NCBI GenBank assembly: GCA_016872605.1
Contig: VGZI01000004.1
Span: 1-64,000 of the forward strand
Direction: 5' to 3'
Source of the DNA: Planctomycetota bacterium
Lineage (GTDB): Bacteria > Planctomycetota > Planctomycetia > Gemmatales > Gemmataceae
DNA: 64,000 nucleotides
Shown here one piece after another: positions 1,934-30,224 of the stretch; position 1 is the first letter of the stretch; every line of letters starts with the position of its first letter. The translations under genes and the position numbers were made by a program. The notes beneath the pieces were generated by a model that saw nothing but the letters and a program-made list of their open reading frames with translations, was not told where the DNA came from and did no database searches.

Positions 1934-3211
1934 CTACACCCGGTCGAACTGGCCTGGGCCACCCAAGGCGTCGCTGAGCTGCCGGACTAACTCGGACGGA
2001 GTGATCGGCTGGCGCAGGTTGGCGACCCCTTCCGGAATCAGCGCTTTGCGTCGATCGGGATCATTGAGACCCGCGGCGCTCAAGTCGACGTCGCCGTGCC
2101 GGTCGAAGGGATTGAACTGGATCGCTTCGAGCACCAGCGCGACCAACGGCGACAACATCGATTTCGTATCCGGTTTTTCGCCGGCGACCAGCGAATCCAG
2201 GTCGACGGTTTCCCCTTTTAAGATACCGAGGATGCGGCGGAGCAACTGATCGCTGGCCTTGTTGCCGTAGGTGTCGGCCACATCGGATTGACTCAGAAGC
2301 GGCTGGACAGCTTCGCGATAGTTGTGGCGGACGGCGAACATCGTAGCGACGAGCGCATCGATAGCCGCCCGGTCGGCGACGCCGGAATTTTGCGCCTCTT
2401 TCAAGATGTTCAACGCCCCGTCGCTGGCGGCGCCCACGAGGTCGGCGATGTAGAGCCGGCATTGTTCGGCGGCGAACAGGTCGTCGGCGGTCCGTTGGAC
2501 TTCTTTTCCGCGCCGTCCTTCGATGATCAGACAAGGCAATAGATCGTCGTCGCCGCAGCCGTAGAAGCTTGTCAACGCAACCCGTATTGGCTCCGCCAAT
2601 GCAGAGGCCACCACGCCGGGAACCGGAAAGATTGCTTGCCCGGCAATCTGGTTCAACGCGTCCGGGTCCAAGAGAACTTTGAATGCGGCAAGCGTGCCTT
2701 GCTCGGTCGGCAAGCTAAGGCGGTATTCGGAGTCGAGTTGCTCGATCGTCTGAGCATCGAGAATCTCGGCCCAGGGAAATTGGCCTGAGCGCGGCGGGGC
2801 GATCAGCTTGGCGTCAACGAGAATGCGCGTCATGATCCGGCGCACCGGGGCATCGAGAATCTCCTTGAATGCGTCGTAGTTCACGGTCAGGTCGGCCGGC
2901 GATTGGCCGCTAAGGCACTGTTGCGTCGTGCGTTTGAGCCGGCCGGCCCATTCGGTCAGCCCGTGTCCCCCGCGTCCGTTCAGATAGACGCCGTGCGCGA
3001 TGACCAACCGAGCGACCTGGCCGTACCAGGCGCTGACGTGCGTGTAGCCGAGGTTGCTCTGAACGACGCTGGCGCAACTGCTCAACTCGGCCGTGAGGGC
3101 ATCGTCGGGCAGCCCCTCGGCAGGGTTGCTTTGCAAGACTTCGAGCCGGCCGAGCACGCCCGCAAGTTCCGCAAGGGCCAGTGTGAAGTCGTCGCGAATC
3201 CAGTCTCTCAT
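1934..3211 (-). CDS. Unrecognised soluble protein, third gene of a sigma-factor cluster
   Basis: 425 aa, no signal peptide, no membrane segment and no motif I recognise; mostly helical, with acidic and Leu/Ala-rich stretches. AAAGGA lies about 8 bases before the ATG and supports the start. It follows the frameshifted gene at 3.3-4.75 kb with a gap of about 125 bases and the phosphatase-sigma gene further upstream, all on the same strand. This suggests a short operon in which the two unknown proteins act with the sigma factor, for example as effectors or partners. That role is inferred from position only. Confidence 0.75.
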   Translation of the reverse strand: MRDWIRDDFTLALAELAGVLGRLEVLQSNPAEGLPDDALTAELSSCASVVQSNLGYTHVSAWYGQVARLVIAHGVYLNGRGGHGLTEWAGRLKRTTQQCLSGQSPADLTVNYDAFKEILDAPVRRIMTRILVDAKLIAPPRSGQFPWAEILDAQTIEQLDSEYRLSLPTEQGTLAAFKVLLDPDALNQIAGQAIFPVPGVVASALAEPIRVALTSFYGCGDDDLLPCLIIEGRRGKEVQRTADDLFAAEQCRLYIADLVGAASDGALNILKEAQNSGVADRAAIDALVATMFAVRHNYREAVQPLLSQSDVADTYGNKASDQLLRRILGILKGETVDLDSLVAGEKPDTKSMLSPLVALVLEAIQFNPFDRHGDVDLSAAGLNDPDRRKALIPEGVANLRQPITPSELVRQLSDALGGPGQFDRV

Positions 3212-3337: not shown

Positions 3338-4752
3338 CTACGCACGTCGTCGGCAATGCTGGGCGCCGATCAGTTGATCCAGCAATACTTCCACCTGTTC
3401 GGCTTGGGACAGGCTGGCCACGAGTTGCACGCGCGTCAGGTCCGGCAGGGCATTGGTCAGCAGGGGCCAGTTGCGCATGCCGACGCGCCCGGCTTCCTCG
3501 GCAATGCCGCTCAGACGAACCAGCGAGGCGAGGAGCCAGCGATTCTCTTCCGCTTGCAGGCGCTTGAACGCCGTGCGCAGACGCTTCGGATTGGCCGACG
3601 CCCAAAAGCTCTCGCGCTGCCGATCGCGCAGCTCCGCGCGATACGGGTCTTCGCCCGGATATCGCGCCGGCTCAAACTTCGACGCGCCAGCGATCATTGA
3701 ACATACGTCGGTGAGCTGAATCGACTGCACGGAACTCGCCTGCGGGCTGAGCTGCAGAAACTGGTGCAAAATCGTCGGCTGCCAGCGTTCGGCCAACTCA
3801 ATGCAATCGCGGACCAGATCGCGCAGCTTGAAGTCCGAAAGGCCCGACTGGGGATTCAGAAGTGCGCGGCCGTCATTTTGGATGACGACCCAATCGCGCA
3901 ACAGATCCATCGGGCCAACGCCATCGTGGCCGGAAACGCCCGGCACAGGTCTTGGTCGGGTTCCGCAGCGAAGCTCCATTTCAGCGGCGAAGCGCAGGCA
4001 CAGCCAAGGGATATCGGGCAGACAATTTTGCACATGCATTCGTGTGAACGGGGGCTTGTTTTGCAGGCCAAGTTGGACGGATTCGGCAAGCATGGCCACG
4101 GCGACCGGCATGGCGTTGGCGAACCAGAGATTGAAGGCCCGGACAAAAACGCGGTAGCCGGCGAGAAGTTCGCGATCCTCTTCGAGTTGCATCTTCATGG
4201 TCGCGTCATCGCTTTTTTCGCCGGGCCGCTTCGCTCCAAACAGCGCCGCAAGAGCGCCTTTGGGATCGGCTCGAAAGTCGCTGACGAGCTGATCGGTGAG
4301 ATTCGCCAGCTCGGAATCGCCGGCGCCGTCGATCAAGCAGTCGAAGTCGGTGGTGATGGCGTCGGAGTCGCGTGCCCTGGGCGCCGCCGTCGCCTTGGGC
4401 CGCATCGCCACGTCTTCCAGCCGGCAAACCTTCTGCTTCGCCGGCGCCCACAGCGCCGAGTAGCGCGTGTCCATGAAATAGTACGGCTGCATGAGCATTG
4501 CCGGATAATCGTTGGCGTCGGCGTTGTCGCGCAGAAATACGAACCCGAATGGCGTTCCGCTTCTTGCGCGATGGTCCGACGCGCTAGCGCGACCAGCGTG
4601 GCATCGCCGGATAGCATCGCGTCCAAGAGTTCATCAGGAATCAACGCCAATGCGTCATCAGGTTCGTCCTGCGCGCGCAACTCCCGGTCGAGCCGTGCGA
4701 GTTGGTCGTCGGACGGGCCTGATGCGCCAGGCGTGTCGGGTTGATCAGTCAT
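3338..4752 (-). CDS. Unrecognised protein, apparently frameshifted
   Basis: Two overlapping frames look like one gene. The 5' part starts at 4752 (MTDQPDTPGAS), with GGAGG about 10 bases upstream, and reads well to about 4550. The sense then moves to another frame (...FVFLRDNADANDYPAMLMQ...), which runs to the stop at 3338 and gives about 386 further residues. The second frame has no good start of its own before an internal ATG at 4498 that lacks a ribosome site. The likely event is a one- or two-base indel near 4520-4555, either real or a sequencing error. The acidic, Asp-rich N-terminus and helical body match no family I know. It lies between the sigma-fusion gene and another unknown gene on the same strand. 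Confidence 0.65.
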
Positions 4753-4924: not shown

Positions 4925-6592
4925 TTACGTCGTATCACCGTCCGTCATGTTTTGGCGAAGAAATTCCTTGATTCGCACAAGGCGATACTTGATATTGCGC
5001 ACGCTCCAGCCGCGTTTGCCTGCTTGAGATTGGGCGATTTCCTCGATCGTTTCATCGGCCATATGTCGTTGCAGCAGGGCCTGATCGTCGGCACTCAGCT
5101 TTCCGATCGCTTCCCGCAGCGCGGTCAGTCGGCGTTCATTCGCGTGGGTTGTTTCCGATGCGACGGCTTCCTGTATCGGCGTCGGGCCGGGATCGATCGG
5201 TTCGGCAGCACCACCGCTCGCCTTGGCGCGGTTCGCCTCGCGTTTACCAGCGCGGGCCAAATCGCACAGCTTGTTGTAGACGATGCGTCCGACGAACGCC
5301 TGTATCGTTCCGCCGGCGTATTTCGACAACTGCGCCCAGAGGTGTGCAAACACCTCCTGAAATGCATTCGCTTGAAACTCCAAGGACCAGGCGCCGAAAA
5401 ACTTGCCGACCCATTTCCAGACCAGGTTCCTGAAACGCTCGGCAAACTCGCTTTGCGCCGCGACATTGCCGTCTAACGCTCGAGCGATCAGGTCGTCGTT
5501 CGCCGTCGTGTGGCGGACCGACACGACGCAGACATCGTCATGCTGCCGGCCTGCCGAATCCACGGCCGCGACGAAGCGAACTCGCACGGGATGCAGAAGT
5601 ACGCGGTTGCGCGGATAACGTGGGACCTCATTTTCGAGGATAGCGCTCAAACGGGGGTTCTTCTTGCCCGGCTCGATCGGCTGGTCAAAAAGTCCATCGG
5701 TGCCGAGCAACGCCTCGCCGTTTTCCAGTAGGCCTACGTGAATCGCACTGACGGCAGAGCCCGATTTTTTCCTGATCTCTTCTTGAATGCCAGCTCCAAG
5801 GCAATCCGCGGCAATGGCGACGGTTCAGGTCGGCACGGCCGGCGGCGCATCGACGTGAAACCGAATCGCTTCGCCCGGGACAAACGTCATATCGCTTTTT
5901 ACTTCGTCGCTTAGCTTGACGTGCAACAGCGTCGTCTGCACATTGCAATCGTCGTCAACGGTCGTCCCTGGCATCGGGGACAGGACCGGCGAAAGCCGAC
6001 GCTCCAATTCGGCGTGTACCTGACACAAATCGACGGGATCCCGCTGTGCCTTCATGCATGCTTGAAAGACGTCACCGATCACCAGCGCGACGAGTGAAGC
6101 CAGCAAGCCATGGCTTGTGACATCGCCGATGAGCAGCACCAACGATCCGTCAGGCCGGGCCTGGTAATCCCACACATCGCCCAGCACTTTGTCGACGGGT
6201 TTACTGAACCAACGAATAACGTAGCGCCCGCTAGTCAACAGTCCACGCGGCGAAAAGCGGCTGGCCGTCGCCGACAGCGCGCCGGGATTTTGCTGTTCGT
6301 ACTCGAAAGGCTGCGTCAGGAGGTTGTTGACTTTTTTCAGCACTTTGGCGTTGAACGCCGCCCAGCCGATGCCGCGAAGACTCGCCGGCGTCTGATGCGC
6401 CAGCCAAAGTTCGATTGACTTGAACAGCCGGCTGACCAGAATTCTCGGATCGGAATCGACATCGTACCGCTCCGAGAAATCCTCGACGAGTCGCTCGATA
6501 TCGGCCTGAAAACGTGTATGCAATTCGGTCTTCGCGGCAGGATCAAAGCGGCGCAGGCCGGCGATAAGATCTTGTGGCGACATTGGCGTCAT
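4925..6592 (-). CDS. SpoIIE-type PP2C phosphatase fused to ECF-like sigma-70, interrupted by TGA
   Basis: One frame of 556 codons is broken only by TGA at 5825-5827 (codon 256). Residues 1-90 resemble a degenerate sigma region 2 (DLIAGLRRFDPAAKTEL). Residues about 135-355 form a PP2C domain with its acidic metal ligands: GDVWD (138-142), GDVTSHG (156-162), TDG (about 298-300) and HDDV (about 351-354). The TGA falls inside this domain, and the domain resumes after it (AADCLGAG, LENGEALLGTDG). From codon about 362 there is a sigma-70 region 2, and from about 490 a region 4. Known SpoIIE phosphatases act on anti-anti-sigma factors. A covalent phosphatase-sigma protein suggests a self-contained regulatory switch, which is inference. 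The stop may be a mutation, a sequence error or a real split. Confidence 0.7.
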
Positions 6593-18122: not shown

Positions 18123-18302
18123 ATCTGCAAGGCGTACGCCGGGCGAGCCAAGCCGCGTAAGCGGCCGGGTTATGGGTTCCGGACGCAACATCCTCACGCG
18201 GCTCGGCGGTTCCCGCGATTCCGCATGCGCTCAAACGGAAGCGTCACGAAAAACGTCTATTCGTCAGAGAGATCGCGAACATCTTTTCGGAGGATCGCCA
18301 CC

Positions 18303-19499
18303 ATGCGCACTATGCTTACTGTCCTTCTTGGTCTGCTGCTTGCCTGCGCTTTTGCGCCGATGGCGCATGCGCAGGCCGACGTCGCCAATCTCGTGCAAGA
18401 AAACAGTGAATTCGCCTTCGCGCTCTACGAGAAGCTTGCAGCCAAAGACGGCAACCTCTTCTTCTCGCCGTACAGCATCTCCAACGCCCTGGCCATGACC
18501 TACGCGGGCGCGCGGGGCAACACCGCAGCCGAGATGAAAGCAACGATGCGCTTTCATCTCGACGACGATCGGCTGCACGCCGCCTTCAATCGCGTCATCG
18601 CCGACCTGAATGGTGATCCGAAAAAGCAAGCATTTCAGCTCAGCGTCGCGAATCGGCTGTGGGGGCAAAAGGACTACGGCTTTCAGCCGGCGTTTCTGAA
18701 GATTGGCCAGGACTTCTATCGCGCCGGTCTTCAGGAACTCGAATTCGGTAATCCGGAGGAGTCGCGCAAGATCATCAACGCCTGGGTTGAAAAGCAGACG
18801 AAGGACAAAATCAAAAACCTGATTCCGCAGGGCGAGATCACGCCGCTCACCCGGCTCGTGTTGACCAACGCGATCTACTTCAAGGCCCCCTGGCAGACGC
18901 CGTTCGAGGTCGAAGCGACCAGGCCGGGCAGTTTTCACCTGGCCGACGGCAAGACGGTCGAGGTTCCGATGATGCACGCCAACCCGATGGCTGGCGTTCT
19001 CGTCCGTGATACGTTCTCGCTCTTGCAACTCCTTTACAAGGACCGCCAGCAATCGATGGTGATCTTACTGCCCAAGAAGAAGGACGGGGTGGCCGAACTG
19101 GAGAAGCAAGTCAGCGCCGCGAAGTTGACCGCCTGGCTCAAAGACGTCGGCGCCTATGAAGTCGATCTCAAGATGCCCAAATTCAAACTGACGACCGAGT
19201 TCAAGCTCAATCGCGAGCTGATCGACATGGGCATGAAGGACGCCTTCGTTCAGGGCCGGGCCGACTTTAGCGGCATGGCCACGCGCGAGAACCTGTCGAT
19301 CTCGGCGGTATTGCACAAGGCATTCGTCGATGTTAACGAAGCGGGCACCGAGGCCGCCGCGGCGACGGCTGTCGTCATCCGCGGCGAGTCGCGTCCGCCT
19401 CGCGCCACGTTCCACGCGGACCACGGCTTTTTGTTCCTCATCCGCGACCACGCCACCGGCAGCATCCTCTTCATGGGCCGGGTGGTGAATCCGAAGTGA
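18303..19499 (+). CDS. Secreted serpin (serine protease inhibitor)
   Basis: 398 aa with a signal peptide (MRTMLTVLLGLLLACAFAP...AHA) and a full serpin fold. N-terminal signatures are NLFFSPYSISNALAMTYAGA; the breach/shutter block LVLTNAIYFKAPWQTPF is present, and the C-terminus is the conserved HGFLFLIRD...FMGRVVNP. The hinge EAGTEAAAATAVV has the small residues of an inhibitory serpin. Counting the canonical loop length from the hinge Glu places P1 at Glu in RGE-S, suggesting a Glu-preferring target; this is inference. The start is supported by GGAGG about 9 bases upstream. A serpin remnant lies 1.35 kb downstream. Confidence 0.95.
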   Translation: MRTMLTVLLGLLLACAFAPMAHAQADVANLVQENSEFAFALYEKLAAKDGNLFFSPYSISNALAMTYAGARGNTAAEMKATMRFHLDDDRLHAAFNRVIADLNGDPKKQAFQLSVANRLWGQKDYGFQPAFLKIGQDFYRAGLQELEFGNPEESRKIINAWVEKQTKDKIKNLIPQGEITPLTRLVLTNAIYFKAPWQTPFEVEATRPGSFHLADGKTVEVPMMHANPMAGVLVRDTFSLLQLLYKDRQQSMVILLPKKKDGVAELEKQVSAAKLTAWLKDVGAYEVDLKMPKFKLTTEFKLNRELIDMGMKDAFVQGRADFSGMATRENLSISAVLHKAFVDVNEAGTEAAAATAVVIRGESRPPRATFHADHGFLFLIRDHATGSILFMGRVVNPK

Positions 19500-19608: not shown

Positions 19609-20677
19609 TCACTTCGCTTCCTTCAACAGCTGCCAGGAGTGCGACGAGTTGCGGTTGGGGTCAAAGTTGGGGTTGTTGGACAGGATGACGCCGCCGGTCG
19701 AACTGCCCCAGGCATATTGGTGCGTGTTGGGCAGATTCACCGTCGCGTTTTTATGGAACGGGCTGTGATACGGCGTCACGCCTCGGATGTAGTTGCTGAA
19801 GTTTCGGTAGACGCGATCCTGTGATGCCTGGCGTTTCCAGTACGCGTCGATGTACATCTGGAACACCGCCTCGCCGTTCTGGCGGGTGACGTTGCTGATA
19901 TCGACGGCGTCCTGAATCCCCAGCCATGCGATTCTGGAACAGATCCTTGACGTAACAGACATCGGCAAACCAGGCAGGATTGCCGTTCGCCGAGTTGAGG
20001 ACAGCGAGCATCTGCGGCGTGGCGTCGTCGAGCTTGCCCTTGGCGGCGCGCAAGGAGAACGGCGGCCAGGCCGGGCCCCAGAGCGTGGCGATGTTGTTGT
20101 TCCCGAAATTTCTTGAGTTGGTGTAGATCGACAGATAGAGATCCTCGTGGACCATCTGCCCGTCGATGGCGTACTCCAGACGGATCTTGCCGGACTTGAC
20201 GCGGACGCCGCCGTGAAACTCCGACAGCGCCTTGGCGACCTGGGGCATCTCCGTGTAGCTGACGATGCGCGGATTGTACTTGGCCCGCAGGAGCGGAATC
20301 GTGATCTTCCGTACCGCTTCCTGCGGATCGTCGATCGGAGCACCAACGATGTCCCCCATGTAATTATGCCCGGGCCTCATGGGGATCACCGGGTTCGTGA
20401 ACCAGCAGAAGTTGCACCAGGCAAACGTCTCGATCTATTCGAGCCCGTCGGGATTTGCAACCTTCACTTCGACGCAGGCCTGATGGGAAAGATTCGGATA
20501 CCATTGGATGCCGCCGGTGACGGTCCACCCTTTGGGTTTGAGAAAGGTGACGGCCACTTTGTTGTTGACCATCTTGTCGCGGATGACGTGCACGTTCATC
20601 TCAACTTCTTGAGCACAGACGGCAGAACCGGCGCCCCACGCCAAGAGGACAGCCAGCGAGAAGGTCGAGGATTTCAT
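19609..20677 (-). pseudogene. Broken secreted-protein gene (in-frame TAG plus frameshift)
   Basis: A secreted protein of about 355 aa can be read in three pieces. It starts at 20677 with signal peptide MKSSTFSLAVLLAWGAG...AVCA. It meets TAG at 20435-20437 (context PDGLE-stop-IETFAW; CAG for Gln would restore it). It then continues in the same frame to about 19930. There the frame changes between DLFQN and RIAWLGIQD, and the last 100 residues end at 19609. Both defects have good protein sequence on each side, so the gene has decayed or carries sequence errors. I do not recognise the family. Confidence 0.75.
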
Positions 20678-28895: not shown

Positions 28896-30224
28896 TTACA
28901 TAACCGCCTTCCCATTCCGCCCCGGCAACCACGCCGGCCTTCGCTTGACCGCCTCGCGAATTCGCCTTACCACTTCCTCGTCCGTCGGATACGGCGACTT
29001 CAGCGCCGGCCGCAGCGGCAGGGGAATTTCGTCCATGCGGTACACTGTTCCCGGTGCGCTGACGCCGGTGGCGGCGGTGGTGATGTGGACGCGGGCCAGC
29101 CGGCTGGTGTGCGTCACTTTCGGGTCGAGAACGATCGTGGGAATCTTGGCGAGGTGGTCGATGCCCGGTTGCGGCATGGTCGCGCCGGGGTCGGCGCCGA
29201 GGACGAGGCACGCGTCGACGTCGCCGCGCACCAGAAGATCGACCGTCGAGAACTCGCCGGGGTTGAAGCGCGGGTAGCCGCGACACAGGTTGACGCCGAA
29301 CGGGTAGCCGGTGGTGTAGCGCATGACGACATCGGCCCCGGTGACGTTGCCGTGCCCGCGCATCGGCATGGCGACGAACTTGGTGAAGGCGTTCATCTCG
29401 GCGGCGAGCATCAGGACAGCGGCGGAGTTCATGTGCTTGCCGCGCGTCATCGACAGGCCCATGCCGAAGAAGATGACGCCGAAGCGGGCGGCTTTCATCT
29501 TGGCGACGAGTTCTTCGAGCTTGCTCAGCGGCAAGCCGGTCTCGTTGACAGCGTCTTCGTTGACGCGCTGGCCTTTGATGAGGGCGCGCAAGGCCGTGAT
29601 CAGCTCGAAATCCTTGCCGGGACGAATTTGCAGAAACAGATTCGCCGCCTTGGCGCTGGGCGTTTCACGAATATCGACGAGGACCATGGTGCGGTCCTTG
29701 CGGCCATTCTGCGTGTACTTCCCTTTCTGCATGATCGTGTACTTGGTGAAGTGCCGGGGATGGCATTCCGCGGGATTGCCTCCCCAGTAGATCATGAAGT
29801 CGGCCCGGTTCTTGACCTCGCCGAGCGTGCAGGTGACTTTACCGCCCAACTGGGCGGCGATTTCGGTTGGCCCGTGTCAGAGGCTGGTGTGGCTATCGAT
29901 GACGCCGCCGACCATCTCGGCCAGCGACACCGCCTCGCGCTGCGTCTCGCAGGTGACGTTGGAAAGGCCGTAGACAAGCGGCATGTCGGCGGCAACGAGA
30001 TAATCGGCCGCCCGTTCGATGGCGTCGTCGACAGTCGCCGGATGGCCGTCGATCAGGGCGTCGGGAAAAAGACGTTCGGCCGTGTGATGCTTGAACCACG
30101 ATTCGCCGAGGCTGCACGCGCGTTTGGTCTCGACGATCTTCTCGCCTTCCGCGTGCAGTTCGATGTCATCGCACACGCAGCCGCAAAAGGTGCAGGTGGC
30201 GTTTTTGACGATATTGAGGGTCAT
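28896..30224 (-). CDS. fwdB: Formylmethanofuran dehydrogenase subunit B, probable selenoprotein
   Basis: 442 residues if TGA at 29877-29879 (codon 116) is read through. It is the molybdopterin-containing catalytic subunit that reduces CO2 to formate or the reverse. Cys11, Cys14, Cys18 (CTFCGCVC) and Cys37 (RACSLG) fit one 4Fe-4S cluster. The TGA lies in VIDSHTSL-TGA-HGPT, exactly where archaeal FwdB/FmdB has Cys or Sec (VIDNTASVCHGPS), the metal ligand. Sequence after it is strongly conserved and in frame: CTLGEVKNRADFMIYWGGNP, CHPRHFTKY, GKDFEL, FFGMGLSMTRGKH, AMPMRGHGNVTG, ADPGATMPQ. Neighbours are fwdD upstream and fwdA downstream. Simple nonsense mutation is the alternative. Confidence 0.85.
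29841..29858 (-). promoter_or_regulatory. Candidate bacterial SECIS hairpin in fwdB
   Basis: On the mRNA, CCGCCC-AGUU-GGGCGG forms a perfect 6-bp stem, extended by one G-U pair. The 4-base loop starts 26 bases after the UGA and has G as its second base. These match the published general pattern for bacterial SECIS elements (loop within about 16-37 bases of UGA, a G in the first two loop bases). Part of the hairpin may simply reflect Ala-Ala-Gln-Leu-Gly-Gly codons. Confidence 0.6.

Follow-up and report, generated by a model that had tools for sequence, protein, structure and literature searches.

A TGA-interrupted frame joining a SpoIIE-type phosphatase to an ECF sigma factor in the Gemmataceae, and its two-gene counterpart in relatives

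Phosphatases of the SpoIIE class normally reach sigma factors by way of separate anti-anti-sigma and anti-sigma proteins. In the window (the whole stretch of DNA analysed, 64,000 nucleotides) the original prediction placed such a phosphatase and a sigma-70 factor together in one frame, with a possible degenerate sigma region 2 at the N terminus and a single TGA breaking the phosphatase, and held that a fused version would be a compact switch, to be sought in other planctomycetes. The question raised by the locus is whether the frame is a working fused regulator or has some other origin.

The frame lies on the minus strand, running from an ATG at 6592 to a stop at 4925. In minus-strand translation 255 codons are followed by the TGA, then by 299 codons and the stop, making 555 codons plus stop with one interruption. 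A plus-strand reading of the same interval is ruled out by several stops. The domain order is a sigma2-like helical domain, a SpoIIE-type PP2C and then regions 2 and 4 of an ECF sigma factor, located as follows.

4925 to 6592, minus strand: the fused frame (sigma2-like domain, SpoIIE-type PP2C, ECF sigma), 555 codons plus stop, one TGA
6293 to 6592, minus strand: putative sigma2-like four-helix domain, residues 1-100, without a DAED-type acidic motif
5510 to 6238, minus strand: SpoIIE/RsbU-type PP2C domain, residues 119-361, with Asp139, 157, 299, 352 and 353 kept
5825 to 5827, minus strand: in-frame TGA, codon 256, between the conserved Asp157 and Asp299
5495 to 5533, minus strand: phosphatase-sigma junction, residues 354-366, where the relatives' phosphatase tail and sigma start (CDCPPDxC) are both absent
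5240 to 5440, minus strand: region 2 of the fused ECF sigma, residues 385-451
5366 to 5377, minus strand: FQAN, residues 406-409, in place of the acidic DAED core-binding motif
4958 to 5122, minus strand: sigma region 4, residues 491-545; its helix-turn-helix contains an insert of 4 residues
3338 to 4752, minus strand: gene X, the downstream neighbour, outside the module, with a switch of coding phase near 4563

The frame is confirmed as a real coding signal, a chance origin being excluded by the profile matches, the codon bias along the frame and the retention of the catalytic-site Asp residues. At the three codon positions the GC fraction of the whole frame is about 0.64/0.43/0.68, matching other genes of the window, and the pattern holds before the TGA, after it and over the phosphatase-sigma junction. 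Read through the TGA, the protein matches the SpoIIE model PF07228 with 34.9 bits (1.9e-8; cut-off 25), while the piece before the TGA alone scores 24.3 bits. The ECF model TIGR02937 is matched by the whole protein with 43.2 bits (3.1e-11; cut-off 42.9) and by the sigma domain alone with 46.5 bits. The Pfam models of sigma regions 2 and 4 both fall under their cut-offs in the fused protein; its layout is that of an ECF (group 4) sigma factor, with sigma2 and sigma4, no sigma3 and a profile score above cut-off. The predicted presence of a SpoIIE-type PP2C and an ECF sigma in one frame is thus borne out by PF07228, TIGR02937 and codon bias. The break in the phosphatase half also stands in the assembly: the product ends at residue 255, short of the conserved Asp299, Asp352 and Asp353, and a product lacking these three residues should not be an active phosphatase, as judged from the sequence.

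All five catalytic-site residues (Asp139, 157, 299, 352 and 353), which we take to be metal-binding by analogy with SpoIIE, are kept in the window phosphatase when it is read through. They are among 45 kept out of 100 columns that are invariant in the relatives, and the chance of keeping all five at that rate is small (hypergeometric p 0.016). Invariant columns are kept at 13 of 26 positions after the TGA versus 32 of 74 before it, and the TGA itself sits in a variable stretch of the phosphatase. The AlphaFold model of residues 1-365, which leaves the sigma half outside, has a moderate pLDDT of 71.5 and is weak at 99-118 and at 250-280, the region of the TGA. It has a PP2C fold, its best matches in the PDB including SpoIIE (5ucg), SiaA (6k4e) and Pseudomonas aeruginosa RssB (3f79); a search of the PDB by sequence gave nothing useful.

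On the family alignment the N-terminal domain is modelled as four main helices with a pLDDT of 88.9. The best 14 of its 41 Foldseek matches in the PDB are all sigma factors, headed by the isolated region 2 of Escherichia coli sigma-E (4lup, probability 0.98, E 0.26); the E value is modest taken alone, and the list of top matches is uniform. RsbU-type N-terminal domains are absent from these PDB matches. A profile comparison of the domain with ECF sigmas by sequence alone is not significant (E 0.07), and there is no conserved acidic motif at the place equivalent to the core-binding motif. The modelled fold (AlphaFold and Foldseek), and not the sequence profile, supports the suggestion that this domain is a degenerate sigma region 2.

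In whole-genome searches of 95 genomes of the family, five besides that of the window (G022, G087, G033, G017 and G028) proved to carry the same phosphatase, its first 100 residues included. None of the other six genomes of the genus has it, and neither the rest of the order (102 genomes) nor evenly drawn samples of the class (398 genomes) and the phylum (392 genomes) yielded a further orthologue; other SpoIIE proteins there match through the phosphatase domain only. The five orthologues have an unbroken frame, which the window copy has not, and score 76-95 bits against PF07228. The window copy is 25-30% identical to them, compared with 46-49% among the relatives themselves across genera.

Directly behind the phosphatase in all five relatives is a separate ECF sigma gene. 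Counted from the conserved sigma start MF[QE]CDCPPD, the overlap of the two genes is 14 bases long in G022, G087 and G017 and 8 bases long in G033, and in G028 a gap of 43 bases lies between them. The remaining neighbours of the pair are not common across genera, and the phosphatase and sigma genes are therefore the conserved unit. Inspection by eye recognised no anti-sigma gene in the neighbourhoods of the pairs, and a plasmid comparison gave no match. Gene pairs that overlap or lie close together often code for subunits of the same complex (PMC10666635). The overlap here suggests that phosphatase and sigma work together, so the link between them is real even where they are not fused. The sigma genes of the relatives are placed as follows.

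L006 2501-3034, L007 930-1460, L008 2564-3097, L009 331-867, L073 8338-8871: partner ECF sigmas

The partner sigmas also have invariant cysteines, as CDCPPDxC at the start and CPFC in region 2. The pattern of these residues suggests that they may form a metal (zinc) or redox sensor inside the sigma factor itself.

No second PP2C-sigma fusion is present among 161 SpoIIE-matching frames in 209 loci, many of them overlapping. The fusion occurs in the window only, among the 95 genomes of the family, 102 of the order and about 790 sampled from the class and phylum. A same-genus match (G002:C196, L011) that seemed to join a phosphatase end to a sigma with two TAG codons proved to be a normal ECF gene preceded by non-coding DNA. 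Homologues in two separate genes were named in the original prediction as the result that would refute it, and by that measure the two-gene state of all five relatives refutes the fusion as a conserved switch. The window frame does not belong to a conserved fusion family; there is so far one member, and it is broken.

At the place of the DAED motif, which contacts the beta-prime clamp of RNA polymerase (PMC8103513, PMC8999054), the fused sigma has FQAN, and it is the sole one of 21 aligned ECF sigmas without Asp before xxQ; the partner sigmas of the relatives keep an acidic EWDD. ECF43 compensates for the loss of DAED through a phosphorylated Thr (PMC8103513, PMC8999054), and FQAN offers no Ser or Thr for such a modification. 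None of the cysteines of the partner sigmas is found in the fused one. Neither the phosphatase tail nor the sigma start of the relatives is present in the fused protein, which is what a deletion across the overlap, putting the two genes into one frame, would leave behind.

Gene X, next to the fused frame, has an apparent one-base frame break where its coding phase switches. It has no homologue in the 95 family genomes, which rules it out as a conserved effector of the module, and no Pfam match. The gene after it (1934-3211, minus strand) has no convincing Pfam match. Further along, a secreted-looking gene (19609-20677, minus strand) is interrupted by a stop near 20437 and changes frame near 19924; in two relatives (loci L231 and L232) the matching region reads as a single frame. 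A serpin gene at 18225-19499 on the plus strand is intact and begins with a signal-peptide-like sequence (Pfam 8.5e-123). Automatic scanning of the window for gene breaks returned mostly ordinary gene ends, and three cases were retained. Base errors or a mixture of strains in the assembly, which consists of 372 contigs, could be the source of such breaks.

The best explanation, to which we give a probability of about one half, is that the frame descends from a two-gene regulatory module of the Gemmataceae, its two genes having fused, diverged fast and recently been broken. The first gene of the module encodes a soluble SpoIIE-type phosphatase that carries a sigma2-like domain at its N terminus; the second, mostly overlapping it, encodes a Cys-rich ECF sigma. 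The two proteins would be made together by translational coupling and would form a complex, in which the phosphatase would control how active the sigma is by taking a phosphate off the sigma or off a partner. Docking may fall to the sigma2-like domain, which can in principle be compared with the sigma-like domain of PhyR. In the lineage of the window the overlap would have been lost, leaving both genes to run in one frame. As assembled, translation would halt at codon 256 and the sigma would go unmade unless ribosomes restart inside. The frame with its one TGA, the five two-gene orthologues, the likeness of the fused sigma to the partner sigmas in profile and indels, the modelled sigma2 and PP2C folds, the divergence and the loss of DAED all favour such a broken descendant. 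We infer that the TGA is real and not an error; that the break is real and recent is favoured by the frame break carried by neighbouring gene X and by the divergence of both halves of the fusion. Against the broken descendant stands the single disabling change in 555 codons. Since conserved columns are kept as well after the TGA as before it, and all five Asp residues remain, the decay must be very young at most, or else the TGA is an error. It also counts against a descent of both halves from the module that the sigma part may not derive from the partner.

The strongest competing account is that the fusion is intact and functional, the TGA being a consensus error of a metagenome assembly or the state of a minority strain. 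The phosphatase would then be carried by its own sigma factor. We consider this doubtful. The codon bias is continuous across the TGA, the catalytic Asp residues are retained beyond the rate of the other invariant columns, no added loss of conserved columns follows the TGA, and in this assembly of many contigs breaks are seen in two further genes of the window. Yet no relative has the fusion, the sigma is without DAED, and the rest of the window's genes are for the most part intact.

Rather unlikely, and able to hold together with a recent break in a descendant of the module, is a different origin of the sigma half, in which the deletion joined the phosphatase gene to another ECF sigma gene and not to the old partner. 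Other ECF sigmas outscore the partner sigmas against the fused sigma (about 1e-10 versus 0.025), the partner-sigma profile misses the fused sigma in its own genome at E<=1, and all the partner cysteines are absent. However, a profile comparison of the fused sigma with the partner sigmas gives E 2e-6, and the two have in common a 2-residue insert in region 2, a 1-residue gap in region 4 and an SVRxIxY-like motif in region 4. The gene order is also the same as in the relatives, and in a sigma tree with long branches the placing of fused and partner sigmas in one clade is not rejected (AU p 0.39).

It is improbable that the locus yields two products, a 255-residue phosphatase fragment and a sigma started inside the frame, for example at GTG 5524 or TTG 5710. 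In-frame start codons do lie between the TGA and the sigma domain, and the relatives make their sigma as a protein of its own. However, no convincing ribosome-binding site is seen by eye before the internal starts, and the fragment would be without three of the five conserved Asp residues.

The window holds a positive control for recoding of TGA. Formylmethanofuran dehydrogenase subunit B (TIGR03129; 28899-30224, minus strand) has an in-frame TGA at 29877-29879 within the HTSL-x-HGP motif (HTSL-U-HGP), with a hairpin about 20 bases behind. TGA and hairpin are both present in all 20 copies inspected. Within the family, the close orthologues listed (about 46, at least 76% identity) have one TGA each, and most of the more distant copies have none. 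From these features the window gene is a predicted selenoprotein, and a Sec form of this subunit has been reported in planctomycete P2, a Rhodopirellula (PMC4807772). For codon 256 of the fused frame selenocysteine is set aside as extremely improbable on the hairpin and homologue evidence: the genome has a tRNA-Sec (72.9 bits, cut-off 47) and the conserved TGA selenocysteine gene lies 24 kb away, but no SECIS-like hairpin follows codon 256 (z 0.11; 106 of 200 shuffles fold equally well) while the control has one (z -2.26; 3 of 200 shuffles), the relatives have no Cys at this position, and TGA is the ordinary stop in 14 of 39 long frames.

The fused copy taken alone matters little, being single and, as assembled, broken. 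Its use is as a pointer that the phosphatase and the sigma touch, and its single-frame form would fit a direct 1:1 complex between them. Most of the interest is held by the two-gene module of the relatives, the more promising object of study. Planctomycetes are rich in ECF sigmas and Ser/Thr kinases, the wiring of which has been little studied. We suggest, tentatively, that the module represents an undescribed form of ECF control in the Gemmataceae, without an adjacent anti-sigma gene and with a sigma-overlapping PP2C bearing a docking mimic of sigma region 2; the same tentative proposal extends to its docking target, which could be core polymerase, an unlinked anti-sigma factor or the sigma itself. 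If true, a phosphatase with a sigma2-like domain, encoded just ahead of an ECF sigma in five genomes and fused to one in a sixth, would link Ser/Thr dephosphorylation to the choice of promoter by a shorter path than usual.

The open-access papers searched describe neither a pair nor a fusion of PP2C and ECF sigma. Several known systems resemble the module in part. Like RsbU and SpoIIE of Bacillus partner switching, it has a PF07228 PP2C behind an all-helical N-terminal regulatory domain. Here, however, that domain is predicted to have the fold of sigma region 2, and the pairing is with an ECF sigma, fused on in the window, and not with STAS and anti-sigma genes. The STPK-regulated ECFs (ECF43 EcfP/PknT, ECF59, ECF61 and ECF62), which include planctomycete examples (PMC8999054, PMC8103513), likewise have an enzyme of protein phosphorylation beside an ECF sigma, and the window sigma is, as ECF43 is, without the DAED charges. 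They differ in having a kinase in place of the phosphatase, and in that FQAN of the window lacks Ser and Thr while the partner sigmas of the relatives keep the acidic EWDD. ECF41, SigJ with its SnoaL_2 domain and the N-terminal extensions of planctomycete ECF87-89 (PMC8103513) offer a likeness of another kind, an extra domain in the sigma2-sigma4 chain. PhyR of the Alphaproteobacteria is a signalling protein that is associated with an ECF sigma and has a degenerate sigma-like domain (PMC8999054). There the domain is joined to a receiver domain and here to a PP2C, and the mimicry here is putative; the modelled N-terminal domain nevertheless combines, as a PhyR-like mimic would, a sigma-like fold with the lack of a core-binding motif.
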